Below, piece by piece: positions 15,119 to 29,529 of a stretch of DNA of 64,000 bases (the stretch's first letter is position 1; each line of letters starts with the position of its first letter). The notes below the pieces were generated by a model, which did no database searches, was not told where the DNA came from, and saw only the letters and a program-made list of their open reading frames with translations. The stretch spans positions 868,001-932,000 of the forward strand of contig NZ_AP022671.1 of NCBI RefSeq assembly GCF_011405515.1, in the 5' to 3' direction. Position numbers and translations under genes: made by a program. The DNA comes from Nitrospira sp. KM1 (lineage in GTDB: Bacteria; Nitrospirota; Nitrospiria; Nitrospirales; Nitrospiraceae).

Positions 15119-15955
15119 GTGACACCAGCTCAAGACAGACGACGATCAGAAGTAGAACAGTATTGTCAGAAGTGGGCCCTATCTTTGCCCTTTCAACTGG
15201 CCAGCACTCACACCAGTTACATCTATAGAGTGACTTACCTGGAGCAGCCGGCGATTCTCAAGATCCTGACTACTAAGGGACGAAAGTTTGAGGCGAATGG
15301 CTCGAGTGCACTGAAATGCTTTCATGGACACGGAGCCGTCAAACTGATCGATTTTGATGTGGGAGCCATGTTGTTGGAATATCTCGACGGAGGCGAATTG
15401 TCGAACCTTGTAAAGCAAGGGCTGGATTCTCGTGCCGCACGCATCATCTGTGATGTCTTGGACGATCTCCATCGCTATGCAGGCGAGATTCCCTCGGGAA
15501 TACAAGATTTGCAACACGAATTCGAATCGTTATTCGCGCGGGCCAGAGGCGAAAAGACGGATTCCGTCTTCCGGAACACAGCGGCGGTGGCGGAGAGACT
15601 AATCTCGACAGAATCGAATAAGAGGCTCCTGCACGGCGACATTCATCATGGCAATATCTTGAAGAGTGCATCGCGCGGATGGGTCGCGATCGATCCTCAG
15701 GGTCTATTCGGCGAAAGGACCTATGACGTGGCAAACTCATTTTTCAATCCGGACGAAGTCCCTCATGTAGTGGCAACGAGAGAAAGGATCGACTCGCTTG
15801 CCACAATCTTTTCCGAACGCCTAGAGGTCGATAAGTCGAGAGTCCTCCAGTTTGCCTATGCCCATGGCGGCCTCAGCGCTTCATGGCACCTTGACGACGG
15901 TGAAAATCCACAGTGGCGCTTGAGAATGACTTCCCTCATCGAGACACTTCTGTAA
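15119..15955 (+). CDS. Aminoglycoside phosphotransferase-like kinase (APH(6)/hydroxyurea family)
   Basis: 278 residues with a GTG start. The kinase-like fold motifs are visible: the lysine of AILKILTTKG for ATP, the catalytic loop LLHGDIHHGNIL (Brenner motif with Asp and Asn) and the metal-binding Asp of AIDPQGLFGERTYDVAN. The IDPQGL..ERTYD signature matches streptomycin-6-kinase-type proteins. Chromosomal homologues often have unknown small-molecule substrates, so a resistance role is only a possibility. It ends in a convergent gap with the radical SAM gene that contains a palindromic repeat. Confidence 0.85.
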   Translation: MTPAQDRRRSEVEQYCQKWALSLPFQLASTHTSYIYRVTYLEQPAILKILTTKGRKFEANGSSALKCFHGHGAVKLIDFDVGAMLLEYLDGGELSNLVKQGLDSRAARIICDVLDDLHRYAGEIPSGIQDLQHEFESLFARARGEKTDSVFRNTAAVAERLISTESNKRLLHGDIHHGNILKSASRGWVAIDPQGLFGERTYDVANSFFNPDEVPHVVATRERIDSLATIFSERLEVDKSRVLQFAYAHGGLSASWHLDDGENPQWRLRMTSLIETLL

Positions 15956-17777: not shown

Positions 17778-17852
17778 TCAAGGATGCTCAAAACGGCATC
17801 TCACAAGGCCGCAGGCGAATTCAAAACCGCAGGCAACATCCTTTCACGAGCC
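17778..17852. repeat. Palindromic intergenic repeat, truncated copy E
   Basis: A shortened member: AGGATGCTCAAAACGGCATC, AAGGCCGCAGGCGAATTC and a closing GCAACATCCTTTC. The central half of the palindrome is missing. It fills the 69-bp gap between the convergent J-like and B12 radical SAM genes. Confidence 0.65.
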
Positions 17853-19799
17853 GACTCCGTGGCTCATCACACGCCCCATCCCCTCCTTGCCGTCTTCTCC
17901 CTCGCCCATCGAAACCGGCCACGTCACCAACCCCGAGACGCTATCCGACGATCCGACCGTCTGCCGTTGCGCATAGATCTGCGGTAGTTTGTTCGTGCCG
18001 AACTTCGAGATATACAGGAATACATGCTCGCGCGCGTTCACACGCACGGCCCAGGGCTGGAAATCGTTCCTGTAGAATTCTTCGCACAGCTGCATCGCAT
18101 CCAGGCATGAAATCCCGACCGGCTCATTCAGCGTGTAGTAGTAGTCCAGCGGCAGGTCGTACTCTTCCTGCTTGTGGATCGTAATGCCGAACTTGTCCGG
18201 ATTTCGTACCATCGGTGTGTGCCGGTACGCCACGAAGTAGAACAGCTCCACCGAATGGATCACCGGCTGGTTGTCGATGACGAACTGCCTGGTTTCAAGC
18301 GCCTCATCCCGCGTCTCGCCGGGGAACCCATAAAAGGCCATCACGTGATTCCAGATCCCCGCCTTCGCAGCTTGATGGAGATTATTCCGGATCACGCTCT
18401 TCTTGGCATGCTTGTCCATGAGATTCAGCACACGCTCGTTCGCCGACTCCATGCCGTAATAGAGCGTGCAGCACCCGGCCTTCGCGGCAAGGTCCCACAC
18501 GGCTTGATCTTGTAGCGTCTCTTCGAACCGGATCAGCGTCGTCCATTTGATACCGACGTTCTGGTCCACGAGCATCTGCGAGACCCTCTTGAAGAGCGCC
18601 GGCGGATAGGACTCGTCGGCAAAGAGAAAGTGCCGGCACTGATACTTGTCGCGCAGCGCCTTTACCTGCTCGACGACCAACTGCGCTGTCATGCCGCGGT
18701 ATTGATCGAAGTAGCCCTGCCCGTGATCGCAAAATGTACAACGTCCCCAGTAGCACCCGCGCGTTGCAAGATAGGGAATGATCCTCTCGGGCACGAAGTA
18801 ATGATCGAGCGGGAAGCCGTCGAAGTCGGGAAGCGGTAGAGCCGTCGTCTTCTCTGTATAGACCTCTTTGTTCTGCTGAATGCCTTCGACCGTGTGATAC
18901 ATCAGGTTGGGCACCGAGGCGAGATCCCGCTGGCCGTTCAACGCTTCGATCAACCAGAGCAATGCATGTTCACCCTCATAAAGAATAGCAGAATCAAATA
19001 CTTCCCCAAAAAACCTCTCGTGGTTAGGCAACTCTTCTTGTAGTCTGGTGATCACATTGCCGCCGACCACGATGTGCACATGCGGAAAGGTCTCCTTGAT
19101 CATCTTGCAGAACGTAAATCCCGCGATGAGCTGCATCTGCGTGCCGATCGAGATGCCGACCACGCTCGGCTTCTCCTTGCTCACCGACGGCAGCACAAGC
19201 TGATTGCAGATGTCGCGGTATACATTCACTTGTTCATCGCCGAGACATGCAAAAAGTTCCTTCGAGACGCCGGGCCTGTAGCCAAGATTGCTTTCCATCG
19301 GATAGAACACGAGCGAAGCCGGATAATAGGCGGCTGAAATGAACTGCATCGTTTCACGGAAAGCATTCAGCGCAGCTTCAAGTTTATCCGCTTCATAAAA
19401 GTGCTGTCCCCGCACGACACTCTTGGCATCTTCAGCGCGAGCCGCAAGGTCGAAGACATCAAGCGTCATGACCTGCTCCAATATAGCCAGCTGACCGCCT
19501 TCCTGCTCTGTCAGCTCCCCCCGTTTCTCCTTCATCTGGAGCGCCTTCAAATGCATCGCCTGGCGTGCTCGCACCCAGATAAGGAACTCGGTCGTAAAGA
19601 AGTGATCGTACATCTCGATGTTGATGTCTCGTTGGATGACGGTATGGCCCGCAGCTCGAAGCACGGCGGTCAGTGACGGCAGCGCGAGATAGGGCGCGGT
19701 CGGCACCCATTCGGGTGGGAATAACAGCATGACCTTGGAGGTCTTGCGGTCTTCCTTCTTGATGGGGGTCAAGCCGTCGATTTGTACGAGTCCGCTCAT
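17844..19799 (-). CDS. B12-binding domain radical SAM protein (paralogue 1)
   Basis: 651 residues from the ATG at 19799; a TTG at 19808 would add three. The N-terminal part starts KVMLLFPPEWVPTAPYLALP and continues with GISIGTQMQLIAGF and a VVGGNVITRL strand, the Rossmann-like cobalamin-binding arrangement. The radical SAM motif is RGCYWGRCTFCDHG, a CX4CX2C spacing. FADESYPPALF, FEETLQD and GMESANERVL follow the TIM-barrel pattern of class B enzymes. The reaction may be a B12-dependent methylation or rearrangement; the substrate is unknown. It is about the same length as, and similar throughout to, the next upstream gene, a tandem duplicate. Confidence 0.9.
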   Translation of the reverse strand: MSGLVQIDGLTPIKKEDRKTSKVMLLFPPEWVPTAPYLALPSLTAVLRAAGHTVIQRDINIEMYDHFFTTEFLIWVRARQAMHLKALQMKEKRGELTEQEGGQLAILEQVMTLDVFDLAARAEDAKSVVRGQHFYEADKLEAALNAFRETMQFISAAYYPASLVFYPMESNLGYRPGVSKELFACLGDEQVNVYRDICNQLVLPSVSKEKPSVVGISIGTQMQLIAGFTFCKMIKETFPHVHIVVGGNVITRLQEELPNHERFFGEVFDSAILYEGEHALLWLIEALNGQRDLASVPNLMYHTVEGIQQNKEVYTEKTTALPLPDFDGFPLDHYFVPERIIPYLATRGCYWGRCTFCDHGQGYFDQYRGMTAQLVVEQVKALRDKYQCRHFLFADESYPPALFKRVSQMLVDQNVGIKWTTLIRFEETLQDQAVWDLAAKAGCCTLYYGMESANERVLNLMDKHAKKSVIRNNLHQAAKAGIWNHVMAFYGFPGETRDEALETRQFVIDNQPVIHSVELFYFVAYRHTPMVRNPDKFGITIHKQEEYDLPLDYYYTLNEPVGISCLDAMQLCEEFYRNDFQPWAVRVNAREHVFLYISKFGTNKLPQIYAQRQTVGSSDSVSGLVTWPVSMGEGEDGKEGMGRVMSHGVGS

Positions 19800-19827
19800 G
19801 ATGTGCAATCTAAACTTTGTCTTCCAA

Positions 19828-19949: not shown

Positions 19950-21851
19950 CTACATCTTACCAGCCAGCGTCGGCGTATGGCCCGCGATCTTAGCGGCCTG
20001 ATATTGCAAATCCGGGAGTTTCGCGAGCCCGAACTTGCAGATGTAGAGAAAGATATATTCTCGAATATAGAGTCGCAGATCCCAGCCGGGGTTGTGGTTC
20101 TGCTCAAACTGCTGGAAGACCCGCTCCGCCTCTTCGATGCTCATCCCGTTCTTCACGGTAAAATAGTAGTCGAGCGCCAGGTCCCACTCCGGGTTCTTGT
20201 AGGCCGTCACGCCCCACTTCTCCGGATGTTTCGCGACCGGATTATGCCGGCCGAGATCGAACGTGCCGAACCCGAGCGAATGGACATAGTTTTTGTTCTG
20301 CTCCAGGAATTGCACCGATTGCCAGGCTTCGTCTTTCGTTTCGCCGGGGAATCCGAAAAAGCCCATACAGTGATTCCAGATGCCGGCTTCAGCTGTATAC
20401 TTCAAGTGTTTCGTCATGATTTCCGTCGTCGTCGCCTTGTCCATCAACTGGAGCACCCGCTCGACGCCTGACTCATAGCCGAAGTGAAGATAGCGGCAGC
20501 CTGATTCCTTGGCATCCTGCCAGACGGTATCTTCCAAGAGGCTCTTCTCGAACCGCATGTGCGTCGTCCAATAGATACCCATCTGGGTATCGACCAGCCC
20601 GCGGGCCAACTTGCGGAACAGAGCCGGAGGATACGACTCGTCGGTGAAATGAAAATGCCGGGCGCCGTACTTGTCGCGCAGATGCTTGATCTCCGCCAGC
20701 ACGTCCTGGATCTTCTTCGAGCGGTACCCGGCTGTATAGCCCTCGCCGTGGTCGCAGAATTCGCAGCGGCCCCAATAGCACCCGCGCGTGGCCAGGTACG
20801 GGAGCGTCCTCGTCGGCACGAAATACTTTTCCAGCGGCAAGCCGTCGAAATCCGGAGGCGGAAGCTCCGCCATATCTTCGGCATAGCTGAGGGCGGAGAC
20901 ATGAACGCCCTTGTCGTCCTTGTAAATGGTGTTAGGCACCTGGGAGAGATCCATCTTGGCGCCCACCGCGCCGACCAATTGCACGAACGCCGTCTCCCCT
21001 TCATAGACTACGGCGCTGTCGAAATACTGGAACAGCGGCGATTCGGGCAGCACATCACGCAGCCGCGTCACGGTATTGCCACCAATCGTGATGTGGATAT
21101 TGGGAAAGTGCTGCTTGATCAGCGCGCAGAACGTCATGGTTGAGAAGATCTGCTGCTGCAGGACAATCGAGACCCCGATCACATCAGGTTTCTCGGCCTC
21201 GATCGCCGGCTTGACGATGTGATTGAACACGTCGCGGTAGACGTTCACTTGCTCGTCCTGGACGGCATCGATGACTTCGTTCGACGCAAAGACTTTATAG
21301 GACAGATCAGTCTCCATCGGAGGCATGCAGATCCGGGCCGGCGCGTAGACCAAAGAAATGACTGACGTGATTTCACGGAAGACTTGAATAGACCATTCTA
21401 ACTTGTCGATATCGTAGAAATTATCCTGTCCACGAACGATCCGCTTTGCCTGCTCCGCTTTCTTGATCAGCTCATCGATTCGCTGCCGCGTCACCTCACA
21501 CAGCGCCATCTGCACATCCATCTCGCCGTTGGTCAGCTCCCGTTTCTTGGAAAGTTTTCTAAGCCGGTCGAGCTGCTGCGGGACCCGGCGGAGGACCTTC
21601 TTCAAAAAGTCCTCGCTGAAGTACCAGTCCCACATCTCGAGGTTCACGTCTTTCTGGATGACGGTATGGCCGGCTTTCCGGAGGACGGCGGTGAGGGACG
21701 GGAGGCTGAGGTAGGGTTCGGACGGATACCAATCGGGCGGGAAGATCAGCATCACCTTCATCTTCCGGCCGCTGGTCTCGAAGGAAGTTTTGCGCTGGAG
21801 TTGGATCAGCTCGTCGGAGGCCCGCTGACCCTTGGAATACTCAATCCGCAT
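19950..21851 (-). CDS. B12-binding domain radical SAM protein (paralogue 2)
   Basis: 633 residues from an ATG with an upstream GGGGGAG. The layout equals paralogue 1: KVMLIFPPDWYPSEPYLSLP, GVSIVLQQQIFSTMTF and TIGGNTVTRL for the B12 domain, and RGCYWGRCEFCDHGEG (CX4CX2C) for the cluster. It also has HFTDESYPPALF, FGYESGVERVLQ and GIWNHCMGFFGFPGETKDEA. The order rSAM2, rSAM1, rSAM on one strand suggests an operon interrupted by repeats. Its upstream region and first codons are duplicated in degraded form about 2.1 kb upstream. Function unknown. Confidence 0.9.
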   Translation of the reverse strand: MRIEYSKGQRASDELIQLQRKTSFETSGRKMKVMLIFPPDWYPSEPYLSLPSLTAVLRKAGHTVIQKDVNLEMWDWYFSEDFLKKVLRRVPQQLDRLRKLSKKRELTNGEMDVQMALCEVTRQRIDELIKKAEQAKRIVRGQDNFYDIDKLEWSIQVFREITSVISLVYAPARICMPPMETDLSYKVFASNEVIDAVQDEQVNVYRDVFNHIVKPAIEAEKPDVIGVSIVLQQQIFSTMTFCALIKQHFPNIHITIGGNTVTRLRDVLPESPLFQYFDSAVVYEGETAFVQLVGAVGAKMDLSQVPNTIYKDDKGVHVSALSYAEDMAELPPPDFDGLPLEKYFVPTRTLPYLATRGCYWGRCEFCDHGEGYTAGYRSKKIQDVLAEIKHLRDKYGARHFHFTDESYPPALFRKLARGLVDTQMGIYWTTHMRFEKSLLEDTVWQDAKESGCRYLHFGYESGVERVLQLMDKATTTEIMTKHLKYTAEAGIWNHCMGFFGFPGETKDEAWQSVQFLEQNKNYVHSLGFGTFDLGRHNPVAKHPEKWGVTAYKNPEWDLALDYYFTVKNGMSIEEAERVFQQFEQNHNPGWDLRLYIREYIFLYICKFGLAKLPDLQYQAAKIAGHTPTLAGKM

Positions 21852-23324: not shown

Positions 23325-23639
23325 CTACGACAGTTTGGGTGCGGTATCACGCTCCGTGTGCCACAGAGCAAGGATCTCGACCGTCGTAGGTTCGGACACC
23401 ATACGGTAGTAAAGATAGTACTGGACACGAGGAAGGTGAATGCGACGGACACCGGCGAGTTTGATATTTCGAGTCTGCGCTACGAACGCTGGTTGGGAGG
23501 CAAGGAGTTGATATGCGCGCTCAAGCTCCACAGCGAATGCATCGGGAGCTTTGGGACGATTAGCGGTCCACCATTCGGCAGCTTCGAGAATGGCGCGGGC
23601 AGCGCTCGCGACGATCCGGACTGGAAACGGACCGCTCAC
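23325..23639 (-). CDS. RelE/ParE family toxin
   Basis: 104 residues from a GTG at 23639, 16 bases after the antitoxin stop; an ATG at 23702 would overlap the antitoxin gene and add 21 unconserved residues. The pattern of ParE/RelE toxins is clear: ARAILEAAEWWTANRPKAPD for helices 1-2, AYQLLASQPAFV, then GVRRIHLPRVQYYLYYRM and VEILALWHTERD with the C-terminal His/Arg region. ParE-like members attack gyrase and RelE-like ones cleave mRNA; which applies is not clear. The gene is translated after its antitoxin. Confidence 0.85.
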   Translation of the reverse strand: MSGPFPVRIVASAARAILEAAEWWTANRPKAPDAFAVELERAYQLLASQPAFVAQTRNIKLAGVRRIHLPRVQYYLYYRMVSEPTTVEILALWHTERDTAPKLS

Positions 23640-23655
23640 GATCGGCGGATCTGCT

Positions 23656-23844
23656 TTAGGAGCTGAGACGTGCTGGTCGTCTCGCCTCGGCAATTGCAGC
23701 AATCAGCTTGATCTCTTCTTCAGGATCGAGCGCGAAGGTTTCATCGCCCTCTGGAGCAAGCACCGTCACAACAGTACCCTCTGGAAAACTTTCGGCATCG
23801 ACCTTGATCGTGCCTCCGACAACCTTTCCTGTTGTAATCAGCAT
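23656..23844 (-). CDS. Antitoxin of the RelE/ParE toxin
   Basis: 62 residues. The N-terminus is an AbrB/SpoVT-like or small beta-type segment (TTGKVVGGTIKVDAESFPEG TVVTVLAPE, given in parts). The C-terminus is an acidic helix (ALDPEEEIKLIAAIAEA) that would wrap the toxin, ending RRPARLSS. Its position directly upstream of a RelE/ParE toxin fixes the role. It should also autoregulate the pair through its DNA-binding half. Confidence 0.75.
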   Translation of the reverse strand: MLITTGKVVGGTIKVDAESFPEGTVVTVLAPEGDETFALDPEEEIKLIAAIAEARRPARLSS

Positions 23845-24591: not shown

Positions 24592-25476
24592 ATGGGTGAT
24601 TTTTTAAAAGCTGCCTATCAAGTGCTCTCTGTACACGGAAAACCACTTTCCGCACGTGAGATTGTTTCAATCGCGAGAGATAGGCATCAACTCGATACAC
24701 GTGGAAACACACCTTGGCAGACAATGAAATCCAAGCTGTCGACCGACATCTTGAAAAAGCAATCGAAGTCGTTGTTTATGCGTTCGGCAGCAGGAAAATT
24801 CGCTCTGCGTGAATGGGAGACACAAATACGTGAACACGTGGCTCCTAGGTATACAAGAGCGCTCTTTGATGAAGACATTATGGTATTTCCAGCTACGTCG
24901 CTCGAAAAATATATAAACAAGATCGGCCTCAACATTCGGCGCGTAGATTCACAGAGTCTATTCGGTGAGTGCTATCCAATGAGAAGACGCCAAGCCGAAG
25001 AGGACCAGAGTGTCATACAGCTCGTGTCGTTTTATGTTGTCCGATTCAAGAATGAATATCTCACATACAAGCGGACAAAAAGGCTGCCTGAGTCTAGGCT
25101 GCACGGATACTATTCGATTGGCTTTGGCGGACATCTAAATGAAGACGACTTCGCGCCATTGTTTAATCAAACAGAACCAGATCAAGTATTCACTTATATC
25201 ATTCGAGAATTGCGTGAAGAATTAAGAGTTAAACCGGATCCAGCCATTTCCTTTCGAGGTCTTCTATATGATGACTCTAAGGAGGTGAGTAAGCAGCACT
25301 TGGGAATTGTCTATGACGTACAGCTGCATTCTCGCGACTTCGAAATAGGAGAGAGGGGCTTTTTAATGGATCCCAAGTTTGAAACTATCGACGATATAGT
25401 TTGCCGTTCAACCGAGTTTGAAAACTGGTCGGTACTAATCGCAAGAGAGGAAATCGATCGAAAATATGGATCTTAG
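24592..25476 (+). CDS. HARE-HTH domain protein with a divergent Nudix-like domain
   Basis: 294 residues. Residues ~1-80 match the HARE-HTH pattern: AAYQVLSVHGKPLSAREIV, RGNTPWQTMKSKLSTDI, then SLFMRSAAGKFALREW. In known proteins this winged helix links to DNA modification and restriction. Residues ~130-290 look Nudix-like: GYYSIGFGGHLNEDD, then RELREELRV, a REXXEE-type box separated from the GG by an insertion of about 30 residues. The missing spacing makes hydrolase activity uncertain. It heads a six-gene operon and overlaps the next gene by 11 bp. The base composition is lower in G+C than the flanks. Confidence 0.7.
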   Translation: MGDFLKAAYQVLSVHGKPLSAREIVSIARDRHQLDTRGNTPWQTMKSKLSTDILKKQSKSLFMRSAAGKFALREWETQIREHVAPRYTRALFDEDIMVFPATSLEKYINKIGLNIRRVDSQSLFGECYPMRRRQAEEDQSVIQLVSFYVVRFKNEYLTYKRTKRLPESRLHGYYSIGFGGHLNEDDFAPLFNQTEPDQVFTYIIRELREELRVKPDPAISFRGLLYDDSKEVSKQHLGIVYDVQLHSRDFEIGERGFLMDPKFETIDDIVCRSTEFENWSVLIAREEIDRKYGS

Positions 25477-26323
25477 TGCTGGCGTTGGACATGAAATCTT
25501 GATAGGGATCGTCTCCAATGCGATATTTGCAGTTTTTCTTTCATTTCTAAATTGGCTGGCTAAGCCGGCTTCGGAGTTCCTATACGGCAAGCGGAAATAT
25601 TCGAGCAGGATTTTCATTTCCGGATCCTGGATTACGTGGTTCCTATCCAACATTCTTTATGCATACTTCTCTGGACCAAATCCTACGCTATTTGCGCTCG
25701 CGACCGGAGGACTGCTATCGCTTTTTCTTTGGAAAGAGCTGAATCAATTTTCAAGATTCGGGTTGCTGAAACTTGATCAGAGCGTTCGTAAAGGTTTGGA
25801 TTATGATACAGCGCTCACCTTGTGCACAAATCAGTTCGAGTTCTTGGGCATAGGCGCATCAAAACTCACATCATCGAAAGCGTTTGAAGGCGCGATAACA
25901 AGGTGCAACCGTCTAGGCACTCCAATCCGTTTTCTTCTCACCAAGCCGGACAACCCTCTCTTGATTGGTGCCGCCAAACAGAAGAATGTGAACCCTAAAG
26001 AGTATAAAAAACGAGTGCAGGAATCTCTGGAACGGCTGGCTAGCTTCAAGTTAGATAGGGGCATGAATATCGAAGTCCGATTCTATCCGAGCGTGACAAA
26101 TCGTGATCTTCAATTATTTAGAATAATGTTTATTAATGATGAATTGTGCTTACTCAGCTACAACGTTATAGGTGAAGGCGATGGCTCTCAGCTTCCTCAA
26201 TTGCACCTCAAAAACTTCACCCACACGCGGAATGTAGAATCGTTTTATTATCCATTCCGAGAGTACTTTGAAAAGCTCTGGGTCGATTCCCTTGCATGGG
26301 ATTTTAGGTTCCCGATCAAGTAA
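25466..26323 (+). CDS. Membrane protein with a cytoplasmic alpha/beta domain
   Basis: 285 residues. Three hydrophobic stretches lie in the first ~100 residues: ILIGIVSNAIFAVFLSFLNW, SWITWFLSNILYAYF and LFALATGGLLSLFLW. The remaining ~180 residues form a soluble domain with TNQFEFLGIGASKLTSSKAF, GTPIRFLLTKPD and NIEVRFYPSVTNRDLQLFRI. This strand order recalls phospholipase-D-like folds, but no HKD motif is seen, so the assignment is only a guess. The gene overlaps the first gene of the operon. It could be a membrane effector or anchor of the system. Confidence 0.65.
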   Translation: MDLSAGVGHEILIGIVSNAIFAVFLSFLNWLAKPASEFLYGKRKYSSRIFISGSWITWFLSNILYAYFSGPNPTLFALATGGLLSLFLWKELNQFSRFGLLKLDQSVRKGLDYDTALTLCTNQFEFLGIGASKLTSSKAFEGAITRCNRLGTPIRFLLTKPDNPLLIGAAKQKNVNPKEYKKRVQESLERLASFKLDRGMNIEVRFYPSVTNRDLQLFRIMFINDELCLLSYNVIGEGDGSQLPQLHLKNFTHTRNVESFYYPFREYFEKLWVDSLAWDFRFPIK

Positions 26324-26338
26324 TAACGTTGAATATCT

Positions 26339-27340
26339 ATGGCGCTCAAGCTTCCGTCAACGGGCGAGTCAGGTTGTAGCTCGAAGCTGCGTGCCACTGA
26401 TTTGGTTAATGTTCTCGATCTTTCTGCTCCGAATGGGTTTGCCGCTTTGTCCGGCGACTCAGGGCCCCTCAATTTCAATTCACGGCTTGTTTCCACTATC
26501 GATACCATTACGGCAATGACTCGAACACCCGAAGTGCTCGGTAAGGTTGCGGTCACACATGCCTTCGGCGATATATACGCATCTGGAGCAACTCCGACTG
26601 ATGCTAACTTTTCGCTTGGACTCGACCATTCCGCCGTTAAGTCTGGTGATGGGGCTAGTCTCGCTCAATCGATCCGGAAAACTCTTTCGGTAGCAGGGGT
26701 AGGACTTACTAAGGCCCATACATACCAGTCTTCCTTGATAGAGATTACCCTCTCGGTTGTGGGAAGAAGGAATAAGTTGTTCCCCGCCATGAGAAAAAGT
26801 CTTGAATATGATCTCGTTCTCACGAAGCCACTCGGTGCCGGCACAGTCTGTCACGATGCATGGCTCCGCGAGGATAGGTCACTGATTTTGAAGAGTGAGC
26901 ACACACTGCAGGTCGACCATCGGCCAATTCGGCATGCACTGTTAGATAGTTGCATTCGTGGAACTACTGACATCTCAGGATTTGGCCTGCTAGGTCACCT
27001 CATAATCCTGGCTTATGCTCAAATCTGTACGGTGGAAGTAAGTTTCGCTTCTCTTCCATTCATGAAAGAGCTTGACGCTGCCATAGCGCACACTTCGGGC
27101 AATTGCTCGGCTCGCAGAAACGAGGAAGACTTCGACGATTATTGCGACTGGAGCTTTCAGGGAAGTTCACTAGACAGAAAGAAAACATATGCAGCTGAAA
27201 CCTCTGGTCCTTTGCTCTGCATCGTTAATAAGGATAACACCAGCAAGCTGCTTCAGATCATGCAACAGAACGGGTTCGAACAATCGTGCCAGATAGGAAT
27301 AGTCAAGAAGGGGAATAATCCCCGTGTTAAAGTGCACTAA
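26339..27340 (+). CDS. SelD-like (selenophosphate synthetase/PurM superfamily) protein without catalytic Cys
   Basis: 333 residues. Several SelD landmarks remain: AFGDIYASGATPTDA (compare SDIFAMGGKP), LTKPLGAG, TDISGFGLLGHL and, near the end, ETSGPLL in place of DPQTSGGLL. The N-terminal G-C/U-G-C-K segment that carries the catalytic Cys/Sec and Lys is absent, and the Asp residues of the metal site around DDAAV are not preserved. It may therefore be an ATP-binding phosphotransferase-like protein with a different substrate. It starts 15 bp after the membrane protein gene and ends 15 bp before the nucleotidyltransferase gene. Confidence 0.8.
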   Translation: MALKLPSTGESGCSSKLRATDLVNVLDLSAPNGFAALSGDSGPLNFNSRLVSTIDTITAMTRTPEVLGKVAVTHAFGDIYASGATPTDANFSLGLDHSAVKSGDGASLAQSIRKTLSVAGVGLTKAHTYQSSLIEITLSVVGRRNKLFPAMRKSLEYDLVLTKPLGAGTVCHDAWLREDRSLILKSEHTLQVDHRPIRHALLDSCIRGTTDISGFGLLGHLIILAYAQICTVEVSFASLPFMKELDAAIAHTSGNCSARRNEEDFDDYCDWSFQGSSLDRKKTYAAETSGPLLCIVNKDNTSKLLQIMQQNGFEQSCQIGIVKKGNNPRVKVH

Positions 27341-27355
27341 CATAAGTTCGACACT

Positions 27356-27916
27356 ATGAAAATGTATTCTGTCGGCTGTGTTCATGGTCGGTTTCAACTT
27401 CCTCATCTTGGACACCAAGAATATATATTGAAGGCGATGGAGTTATGTGAGTTCTTATGGATCGGAATTGCTAGGCCGGATATCCGAGAGCACTTACCCT
27501 GCACTGTAGCTAAACACAGAGCGAACACCTTGGATAACCCTCTAACGTACTATGAACGCATGATGATACTTCGAGAGATCCTTCTAGACTGCGCCAAGAA
27601 TACAGACGATTTTGGCTTCATTCCCTTTCCCATCGATCAGCCTGAACGTCTACCTGATTTCCTACCGACATCAATACCTTGCCTTACCACCATTTACGAC
27701 GACTGGAATCGTCATAAGATAAAAGAACTAGAGAGGATTGGATACAAAGTAGGAGTGCTGTGGGAGCGAAGTGAGAAGAAATACTCTGGCCACATCATTC
27801 GACAATCGATAATTGATGGCTCTACAGATTGGGAAGGCATGGTTTCGACCTCCACCAGGAGGGCCATACTGGATCTCCAGATCAGAGAGAGACTTCTCAG
27901 TCTGTCACAACAATAA
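27356..27916 (+). CDS. NMN adenylyltransferase-like nucleotidyltransferase
   Basis: 186 residues. The HxGH signature of the nucleotidyltransferase alpha/beta phosphodiesterase family is present in GRFQLPHLGHQEYI close to the N-terminus, and the second motif is YSGHIIRQSI (usually ISGTxIR). The mid-part IGIARPDIREH and LTYYERMMILREIL fits NadM-type proteins, which join NMN and ATP to make NAD+. Other substrates such as CTP cannot be excluded. It lies fourth in the operon, beside Nudix-like and ADP-ribosyltransferase-like genes, so nucleotide or NAD chemistry is a plausible theme. Confidence 0.8.
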   Translation: MKMYSVGCVHGRFQLPHLGHQEYILKAMELCEFLWIGIARPDIREHLPCTVAKHRANTLDNPLTYYERMMILREILLDCAKNTDDFGFIPFPIDQPERLPDFLPTSIPCLTTIYDDWNRHKIKELERIGYKVGVLWERSEKKYSGHIIRQSIIDGSTDWEGMVSTSTRRAILDLQIRERLLSLSQQ

Positions 27917-27925
27917 ACCCAATGT

Positions 27926-28729
27926 ATGCCGACCGTTAGACCGTTTCTAAAGTGGCCAGGAGGTAAGCGCTGGTTCATTCAGTACCACTCCAGCATCCTT
28001 CCAAGCTCATTTAACACTTACATTGAGCCTTTTCTTGGAAGTGGTTCGGTATTTTTCCACCTGAAACCACGACGAGCCATCCTCGGAGATTTAAATCCAG
28101 AGCTAGTAGCTAGCTTCCAGGGAATCAAGGATGATTGGCTAGAAGTCGAGCGGTTGCTCGAAGGACACGAAGAGGCTCACACAGAGTCATACTACTATTT
28201 GCTCCGTGAGCAAACACTGAAGATAAACACCCAACGAGCGGCAAGGTTAATCTATCTCAATCGAACCTGTTTCAATGGAATATTCCGTGTTAACAGAAAG
28301 GGACGGTTCAACGTGCCAGTAGGCACGCGGGATACGATTATTTTTGACGATGACAACTTCAATGAGATGGCACAAGCCCTGGAAAAAGCCGAAATTAAGG
28401 AATCAGATTTTGCTCCGCTAATCAACTGCGCCACGCAAAACGATTTCATATTTGCAGATCCACCATATACAGTACGGCATAACATTAACGGGTTTCTAAA
28501 GTATAACGAGACTCTGTTTTCGTGGAGCGATCAGATTCGTCTTGCAGATGCTCTTTCTCGTGCTCGTGATAGGGGTGCAATTATTGTATCGACAAATGCG
28601 AACCACCAATCGGTCCGTAACCTTTACCAAGGAAGAGGCTTTCAAATGCGGACTGTCTCCAGATTCAGCCCGATATCAGCGGATCCTGACAGCAGAAAAC
28701 AATTTGAAGAACTTGTGATCACCACATAG
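27926..28729 (+). CDS. DNA adenine methylase (Dam/DpnM type)
   Basis: 267 residues, the usual length. Motif I is seen in FLKWPGGKRW and EPFLGSGSVFFHL (SAM binding), motif IV as FADPPYTVRHN (DPPY, N6-adenine methylation), and the target-recognition part includes YLNRTCFNGIFRVN. The C-terminal FEELVITT is typical of the family. It would methylate adenine in a short palindrome, probably GATC, by analogy only. No restriction endonuclease is recognised in the operon, so it may mark self DNA for another component or be an epigenetic regulator. Confidence 0.92.
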   Translation: MPTVRPFLKWPGGKRWFIQYHSSILPSSFNTYIEPFLGSGSVFFHLKPRRAILGDLNPELVASFQGIKDDWLEVERLLEGHEEAHTESYYYLLREQTLKINTQRAARLIYLNRTCFNGIFRVNRKGRFNVPVGTRDTIIFDDDNFNEMAQALEKAEIKESDFAPLINCATQNDFIFADPPYTVRHNINGFLKYNETLFSWSDQIRLADALSRARDRGAIIVSTNANHQSVRNLYQGRGFQMRTVSRFSPISADPDSRKQFEELVITT

Positions 28730-28743
28730 CGAACGCGGCTAAC

Positions 28744-29529
28744 TTGCCAACAATCCTAGACTGCTCGAGCATTGAATCGACAATTGCATCCCTGAGTACG
28801 ATCGTTGGCATAAACGGTGAAGCGATTCGAGAGTTCGTCAAGACATTCGACTGTAATGCCTACGTCAATGAACATCCTGATGACCATCGACATCTACGAG
28901 AACTCCTTCCTTATCTACTGCAGGACAAAGGGGCTATTCTACGTAACCCTGACATAGTGTGCTGGTTTCATGGGACTCGAGTTGTGGACCCAGAAACCAT
29001 TCGCACTGTTGGTCTTATATCTCTGCAACAAAGAATCCCGCAGATATGGCAAGATCTTTTTGATCTGGCGCGAGATTGGGTCAGCGAAGAACAGTGGCAG
29101 TCCTTTCGTGCACAAGTTGAAACCCAAGATCATCATGAAAGCAGCGTTCGTTTTAGAAACAGAATGCACAACGTTTTTGACGGAGGCCCGCATGCAGTTT
29201 TAATCCGCGACGCGATTGCGGATCATGCACGTTTTGACGGAGTGGACTATCTATCTGCGCCAGAAACAATCGAGGATCTTTGCGAGTCATTTAAAATACA
29301 CAATCAGCGAGACCTACTTGGTAAGTTCCAAACAGAGAGCGTTCCCTGCATCGTAAAGTTCCAGGATCAATGTCGCAGAGATGACCTTGTCGGAGTTGCT
29401 CTCTCCTACCTTTGGTGCACATCTCACGGTGAACCATGCCTAACCTGTAACGCATGCCTTGAAGGTGACAGGAATACAATTCCTGCCGATGCAATTATTG
29501 AAGTAGAACGGATAGACGAAAGAAGATAG
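28744..29529 (+). CDS. Uncharacterised protein with ADP-ribosyltransferase-like HGT motif and Cys cluster
   Basis: 261 residues with a TTG start 14 bp after the methylase gene. CWFHGTRVVDPETIRTVGLI resembles the HGT..I...GL pattern at the NAD-binding site of PARP/Tpt1/DarT-type ADP-ribosyltransferases. No full catalytic triad can be placed without modelling. The C-terminal part has a dense cluster WCTSHGEPCLTCNACLEGD, likely zinc binding. As the last gene of the operon it may be the effector. Family assignment is tentative. Confidence 0.55.
   Translation: MPTILDCSSIESTIASLSTIVGINGEAIREFVKTFDCNAYVNEHPDDHRHLRELLPYLLQDKGAILRNPDIVCWFHGTRVVDPETIRTVGLISLQQRIPQIWQDLFDLARDWVSEEQWQSFRAQVETQDHHESSVRFRNRMHNVFDGGPHAVLIRDAIADHARFDGVDYLSAPETIEDLCESFKIHNQRDLLGKFQTESVPCIVKFQDQCRRDDLVGVALSYLWCTSHGEPCLTCNACLEGDRNTIPADAIIEVERIDERR

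Follow-up and report, generated by a model that had tools for sequence, protein, structure and literature searches.

A SelD-like protein with a retained Cys-x-x-Lys motif in a rare, mobile four-gene cassette of Nitrospira sp. KM1

Selenophosphate is known to be used for selenocysteine, selenouridine, selenium-dependent molybdenum hydroxylases and a few small molecules. SelD (TIGR00476; structures 3u0o from Escherichia coli and 2yye from Aquifex) is reported to require a Cys-x-x-Lys motif together with four metal-binding Asp residues, and Asn87 to be essential in the E. coli enzyme (PMC4210487). Distant SelD relatives which keep the catalytic Cys have been described from Crenarchaeota without known selenium traits; this family retains all important residues including Asn87, is encoded near sulfur genes and was reported to be absent in bacteria (PMC4210487). 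“Orphan” selD genes in genomes without known selenium uses represent an open puzzle (PMC5322559, PMC2276186), and such genes have been found to adjoin their client system, in one case in convergent orientation (PMC2276186). Among nucleotidyltransferases, PhpF of the phosphinothricin-type phosphonate clusters is a phosphonoformate cytidylyltransferase (PMC6697681). The cassette described here is mobile and combines a nucleotidyltransferase of the type that activates small phosphorus acids with a relative of SelD or, in one genome, with a true selD of the orphan kind.

Our window, a stretch of 64,000 nucleotides from Nitrospira sp. KM1, carries an intact open reading frame of 333 codons (333 aa) at 26339–27340 (+), which is the third gene of the cassette. 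The initial annotation had recognized it as kin of SelD, and this is borne out by the match to NCBIfam TIGR00476 (E 4e-36; 124.7 bits, just short of the cut-off of 125) and by the closest solved structures by sequence, all of which are SelDs; the family assignment is therefore not a chance result. Profiles of ThiL and HypE are matched weakly. The core motifs said to be kept, LTKPLGAG and TDISGFGLLGHL, are both found in the protein, and the DPQTSGG loop, said to be altered, reads AAETSGP. The reported loss of the N-terminal Cys/Sec loop and of the Lys proved to be mistaken: the unmodified reading frame begins with MALKLPSTGESGC13SSK16LRATDL and thus carries GESG-C13-SS-K16-L, its active-site Cys-x-x-Lys motif, G12-C13-S14-S15-K16, being encoded at 26372–26386 (+). 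A better start codon revealing such a loop had been named as an observation that would speak against the earlier reading, and the loop is present without moving the start. In a phmmer comparison, the GESGCSSK stretch is paired with SGCAAK of Aquifex SelD, SGCAAKVGPGDL, and in an alignment of 40 sequences C13 and K16 share columns with Cys17 and Lys20 of E. coli SelD. The C13 column holds Sec or Cys in the true SelDs of the window's phylum, often Sec (GAGUACK). The loop was overlooked rather than lost. A pseudogene was also considered and dropped, since the reading frame and the operon are intact.

The three other SelD-like proteins encoded in related cassettes all keep GCxxK. All four members, which share about 19–24% identity where measured, agree in having Cys17, Lys20, Asp51, Asp68, Asp91, His140 and Asp227 (numbered as in E. 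coli SelD). Loss of function as in animal SPS1, which is without Sec or Cys, was considered and dropped in view of the full set of retained catalytic residues. In addition to the Cys-x-x-Lys motif (C13-S-S-K16) and the four metal-binding Asp (51, 68, 91 and 227), the protein shares with SelD the full-length fold, His140, LTKPLG and TD(I/V)(S/T)G. It differs from SelD in forming a clade of its own, in a shorter N-terminal region and in three changes fixed in 4/4 members, namely Asn87 to His, Gly138 to Lys and DPQTSGG to xExxGP; a further change replaces M95 by a small residue. Each of the 36 true SelDs in the comparison has Asn at position 87, and in the alignment the GGHS loop of SelD becomes K-x-H-(S/T) in the clade. 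Since Asn87 and these two loops depart from SelD, the protein is not to be classed as an ordinary SelD, and its substrate may differ from selenide. Its altered Asn87 and its place in a different, bacterial cassette also set it apart from the crenarchaeal family.

In the tree, the four SelD-like proteins form one clade (SH-aLRT 99) that includes neither the 36 true SelDs nor the outgroups of the ThiL/PurM type; long branches make its exact placement unsure. An AlphaFold2 model, built from an alignment that included true SelDs, reached a pLDDT of 79 with low confidence for the N-terminal 44 residues. Its best fit was Aquifex SelD 2yye (Z 34.8 over 317 residues), whereas HypE reached no more than Z 26.2 and ThiL 24, so the predicted model belongs to the SelD fold, with the Cys loop in its low-confidence region. 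By its residues, the protein represents a distinct clade with a retained catalytic core; it probably acts like SelD and is probably a divergent, active SelD-type dikinase. Of the new function proposed earlier, a sensor or an enzyme that has abandoned selenide chemistry does not agree with the retained Cys and Lys, and an altered acceptor is possible in view of N87H, G138K and xExxGP.

The window operon is compact and encodes, in this order, a HARE-HTH/Nudix protein, a membrane protein with a PLD fold, the SelD-like protein and a nucleotidyltransferase, in agreement with the two neighbours assigned earlier to the SelD-like gene. Gene 1 (24592–25476, +) combines a HARE-HTH domain at residues 3–75 (Pfam E 3e-15) with a Nudix domain whose intact box, GGH...RELREE, was found by pattern in 6/6 cassette copies (L046, L047, L053, L055, L127 and L150); the HTH part is absent from two of the gene 1 copies. 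Gene 2 (25466–26323, +) is predicted to encode three transmembrane helices and a soluble domain with the fold of the PLD superfamily. In its AlphaFold2 model (mean pLDDT 63, soluble core 70–90), this domain best fits Nuc (Z 11.0), TrmBL2 (10.3) and the sugar-binding domain of TrmB (9.7). The HKD motif of PLD (HxKx4D) was sought in six gene 2 copies and found in none, which together with these fits makes a binding rather than a nuclease role likely. The product is a candidate ligand-gated membrane sensor or effector.

Gene 4 (27356–27916, +) encodes a nucleotidyltransferase of a PhpF-like branch with GRFQxxHxGH and SGxxIR motifs. It matches the NMNAT profile TIGR01527 (E 3e-10) with 39.8 bits against a cut-off of 181.2, and it falls into the PhpF clade with a branch support of 98 versus archaeal NMNATs. 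An identity as NMNAT was ruled out by this shortfall and by the grouping with PhpF. As for the phylogeny proposed in the initial annotation, the SelD-like proteins do form a distinct clade outside true SelD, tied to Nudix and nucleotidyltransferase genes in a conserved cassette, with the partner taken for an NMNAT better described as PhpF-like. Three kinds of relatives share the branch of gene 4: PhpF of phosphinothricin-type clusters (L049–L051), in one of which (L049) PEP mutase, phosphonopyruvate decarboxylase (Ppd) and PhpG are encoded alongside, all above cut-off; enzymes encoded beside a true selD and a PhpG-like gene (L042, L056 and L057); and enzymes beside a PEP-synthase-like dikinase (L038–L041). 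The branch therefore seems to take small phosphorus acids from a neighbouring enzyme. Like the phosphonate clusters, the cassette has a nucleotidyltransferase of the PhpF branch, and operons of selD with PhpF-like and PhpG-like genes do exist; it differs from them in having neither PEP mutase nor PhpG, and its acceptor is probably selenophosphate rather than phosphonoformate.

Relatives of the cassette were collected by searching with the gene 4 nucleotidyltransferase and, in one case, with a gene 2 profile. All four genes occur in Parasphingorhabdus flavimaris (L053) and in a Caulobacterales MAG (L055). Copies with genes 1, 2 and 4 but without gene 3 come from MAGs of the Acidobacteriaceae (L046) and of Methylophilus (L047) and from a pair of prophage contigs (L126/L127) that are nearly identical. 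The alphaproteobacterial G660 (L150), found with the gene 2 profile, carries genes 1–3 up to the contig end. The order is conserved across these unrelated bacteria. The gene 2 profile was run on some 1,270 genomes from the Alphaproteobacteria, the Acidobacteriota and the class and order to which the Methylophilus host belongs, and the L150 copy was the only further cassette it revealed, so cassettes of this kind are rare. In the window's phylum, one weak match to gene 2 (G024/L152) comes without a cassette. Neither a genome-wide pattern scan nor searches of viruses with the single SelD-like protein, of plasmids and phages with gene 2 and of phages with gene 4 led to anything useful. The window cassette has a GC content of 44–50%, compared with 55% for the whole window, and neither the SelD-like gene nor gene 2 was found in the sampled genomes of the same genus or family, as would be expected for a horizontally gained island. 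The cassette, four genes with the SelD-like one in third place, has moved horizontally; it is rare and mobile, and the libraries and papers searched contain no description of it.

A Dam-family adenine DNA methyltransferase gene (27926–28729, +; TIGR00571 E 5e-64, PADLOC MTase_II E 5e-96) begins 9 bp downstream of gene 4 within the same low-GC block. Such a gene also adjoins the cassette in the Acidobacteriaceae MAG (L046, 7398–8243) and is absent beside the other copies. A gene at 28744–29529 encodes a 261-aa protein without a Pfam match, whose relatives of about 30% identity are found on more than 700 plasmids, mostly enterobacterial; on the one plasmid examined, the relative lies directly beside a gene for a HEPN-family nuclease. 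The FHGTR stretch of this protein presumably recalls ADP-ribosyltransferases. A ParE-like toxin gene (23325–23702, −) lies just upstream of the cassette block. Two pairs of direct repeats, 29552–29591/30512–30551 (40 nt, 75%) and 23073–23103/24323–24353 (31 nt, 94%), flank the low-GC block and are possible traces of mobile elements.

The earlier remark that no selenium genes lie near extends to the whole host: its complete genome is without true SelD, SelA, MnmH and YqeB. The same was found in all four hosts carrying the SelD-like gene, as SelA, MnmH and YqeB were detected in none of them and no other SelD exceeded the cut-off (0/4), the best other matches scoring 37–62 bits, at the level of sister families. 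The SelD-like gene thus differs from selD both in its Nudix/PLD/nucleotidyltransferase cassette and in hosts without Sec, selenouridine and YqeB systems. Both checkable hosts (2/2) whose cassette is without the SelD-like gene have a true SelD. The acidobacterium (L046) has a Sec-containing SelD together with SelA. In Methylophilus (L047), a true selD lies 76 bp from gene 4 in convergent orientation and the genome is without SelA, MnmH and YqeB, which makes this gene an orphan selD. The complementary distribution of SelD-like gene and true SelD is suggestive (Fisher p = 0.067 for six genomes, among which are several draft assemblies). The prophage copies L126/L127, which have no SelD-like gene either, stand outside this comparison.

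Defence genes adjoin four of the six cassette loci, and one of six 20-kb stretches drawn at random from these genomes. The neighbours are Gabija in P. flavimaris (L053), CBASS with SLATT in the Caulobacterales MAG (L055), Sir2-HerA in the prophage (L127) and type I restriction-modification in Methylophilus (L047). The six random stretches yielded one restriction gene besides general AAA and sigma-54 matches, and by this comparison a link to defence is plausible but moderate. Cassette genes 1–4 matched none of the PADLOC 2023 models up to an E value of 1, and the literature searched yielded nothing relevant on a SelD-Nudix or selenophosphate defence system. With CBASS-like nucleotide signalling the cassette shares a nucleotide-making enzyme, a membrane protein with a soluble sensor-like domain and a location in defence islands, while CD-NTase, SAVED and TIR domains are absent from it. 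We infer a defence role from this setting.

We give about an even chance to the reading that a divergent, active SelD-type dikinase feeds selenophosphate, or a close analogue, to the PhpF-like nucleotidyltransferase of the four-gene cassette. The SelD-like protein would convert ATP, reduced selenium (or a close analogue) and water into X-phosphate, AMP and Pi, a dikinase step which, to judge from the residues, may proceed via Cys13, Lys16 and the conserved metal-binding Asp. Kinship and pairing suggest that selenophosphate would then pass to gene 4, which would join it to an NTP-derived NMP to give an NMP-selenophosphate nucleotide and PPi. This nucleotide or a derivative may be the ligand of the PLD-fold membrane protein, and the HARE-HTH/Nudix protein may sense DNA, destroy the nucleotide or do both, with the effector kept off until infection. 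Substrate, product and direction of signalling are those we infer. The main doubt concerns Asn87, since its change to His throughout the clade would allow sulfide or another acceptor. As a further and unlikely step, the cassette would serve selenium-based immune signalling in which a nucleoside selenodiphosphate (NMP-selenophosphate) or its product gates the membrane effector and is erased by the DNA-sensing Nudix protein, with an own SelD-like enzyme where the host has no selenophosphate supply. If the dikinase reading is right, activated selenium would have a destination of a new kind, perhaps in anti-phage signalling, and the four-gene system could be tested directly in E. coli.

Alternatively, the cassette may be linked to selenium and make a metabolite for another purpose, such as a modification, a toxin or metabolite synthesis, with its defence neighbours reflecting shared mobile hot spots. 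This is a possible reading, as the related SelD-nucleotidyltransferase-PhpG-like operons look biosynthetic, a restriction gene turned up among the random stretches as well and genes 1–4 are without a PADLOC model; it sits less well with defence systems adjoining cassettes in unrelated genomes and with a layout of synthase, Nudix and membrane protein that resembles signalling immunity. About as possible is a reading in which the fold and ATP chemistry are kept for another acceptor, such as sulfide, giving thiophosphate, or an organic thiol or selenol near the new His74, Lys125 and ExxGP residues, which the nucleotidyltransferase would then activate. The substitutions fixed across the clade would suit this reading, and the pairing of related nucleotidyltransferases with a PEP-synthase-like dikinase instead of SelD indicates that the acceptor can vary. 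However, a true SelD appears to substitute in hosts without the SelD-like gene, including the orphan selD that adjoins the Methylophilus cassette, and this speaks for selenophosphate as such.

An NAD salvage or NAD defence module, with NMNAT and Nudix functions and an incidental SelD-like gene, is improbable: gene 4 does match NMNAT profiles weakly and gene 1 is a Nudix hydrolase, but the former scores 40 against 181 bits and clusters with PhpF, SelD-linked and dikinase-linked enzymes rather than with archaeal NMNATs. Least of all do we favour a catalytically dead sensor or scaffold, the line taken in the initial annotation. Its divergent loops and a score slightly below the curated SelD cut-off would be in keeping with such a protein, yet it seems very improbable given catalytic Cys, Lys and Asp positions that are all invariant among four members at about 20% identity.

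Our searches also brought up loci that merit separate mention. A true selD with genes for a PhpF-like nucleotidyltransferase and a PhpG/ApgM-like protein immediately after it occurs in Rhodococcus plasmids as well as in a Chloroflexi and an actinobacterial MAG (L042, 6928–9877; L056, 8926–11854; L057, 8956–11760), and has the look of a selenium small-molecule pathway not yet described; L069 has selD, PhpF-like and PhpG-like genes too, with selD a few genes away. Some of the loci with a PhpF-like gene beside a PEP-synthase-like dikinase (L038–L041), which is short, also carry radical SAM, cysteine desulfurase or DHH genes, and in Rhodococcus (L040 and L041) the C-terminus of an upstream protein resembles the PLD-fold domain of gene 2. 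An acidobacterial operon (L165, 4184–7525) near a Dam methyltransferase gene encodes a membrane protein similar to that of gene 2, a member of the beta-RFAP-synthase family and a protein of 543 aa that matches no NCBIfam profile, and may represent a sister cassette with different chemistry. Elsewhere in the window, two neighbouring genes (17844–19808 and 19950–21851, −) encode B12-binding radical SAM proteins of similar size, and a gene at 15119–15955 belongs to the aminoglycoside/hydroxyurea phosphotransferase family (APH_6_hur, E 6e-56).
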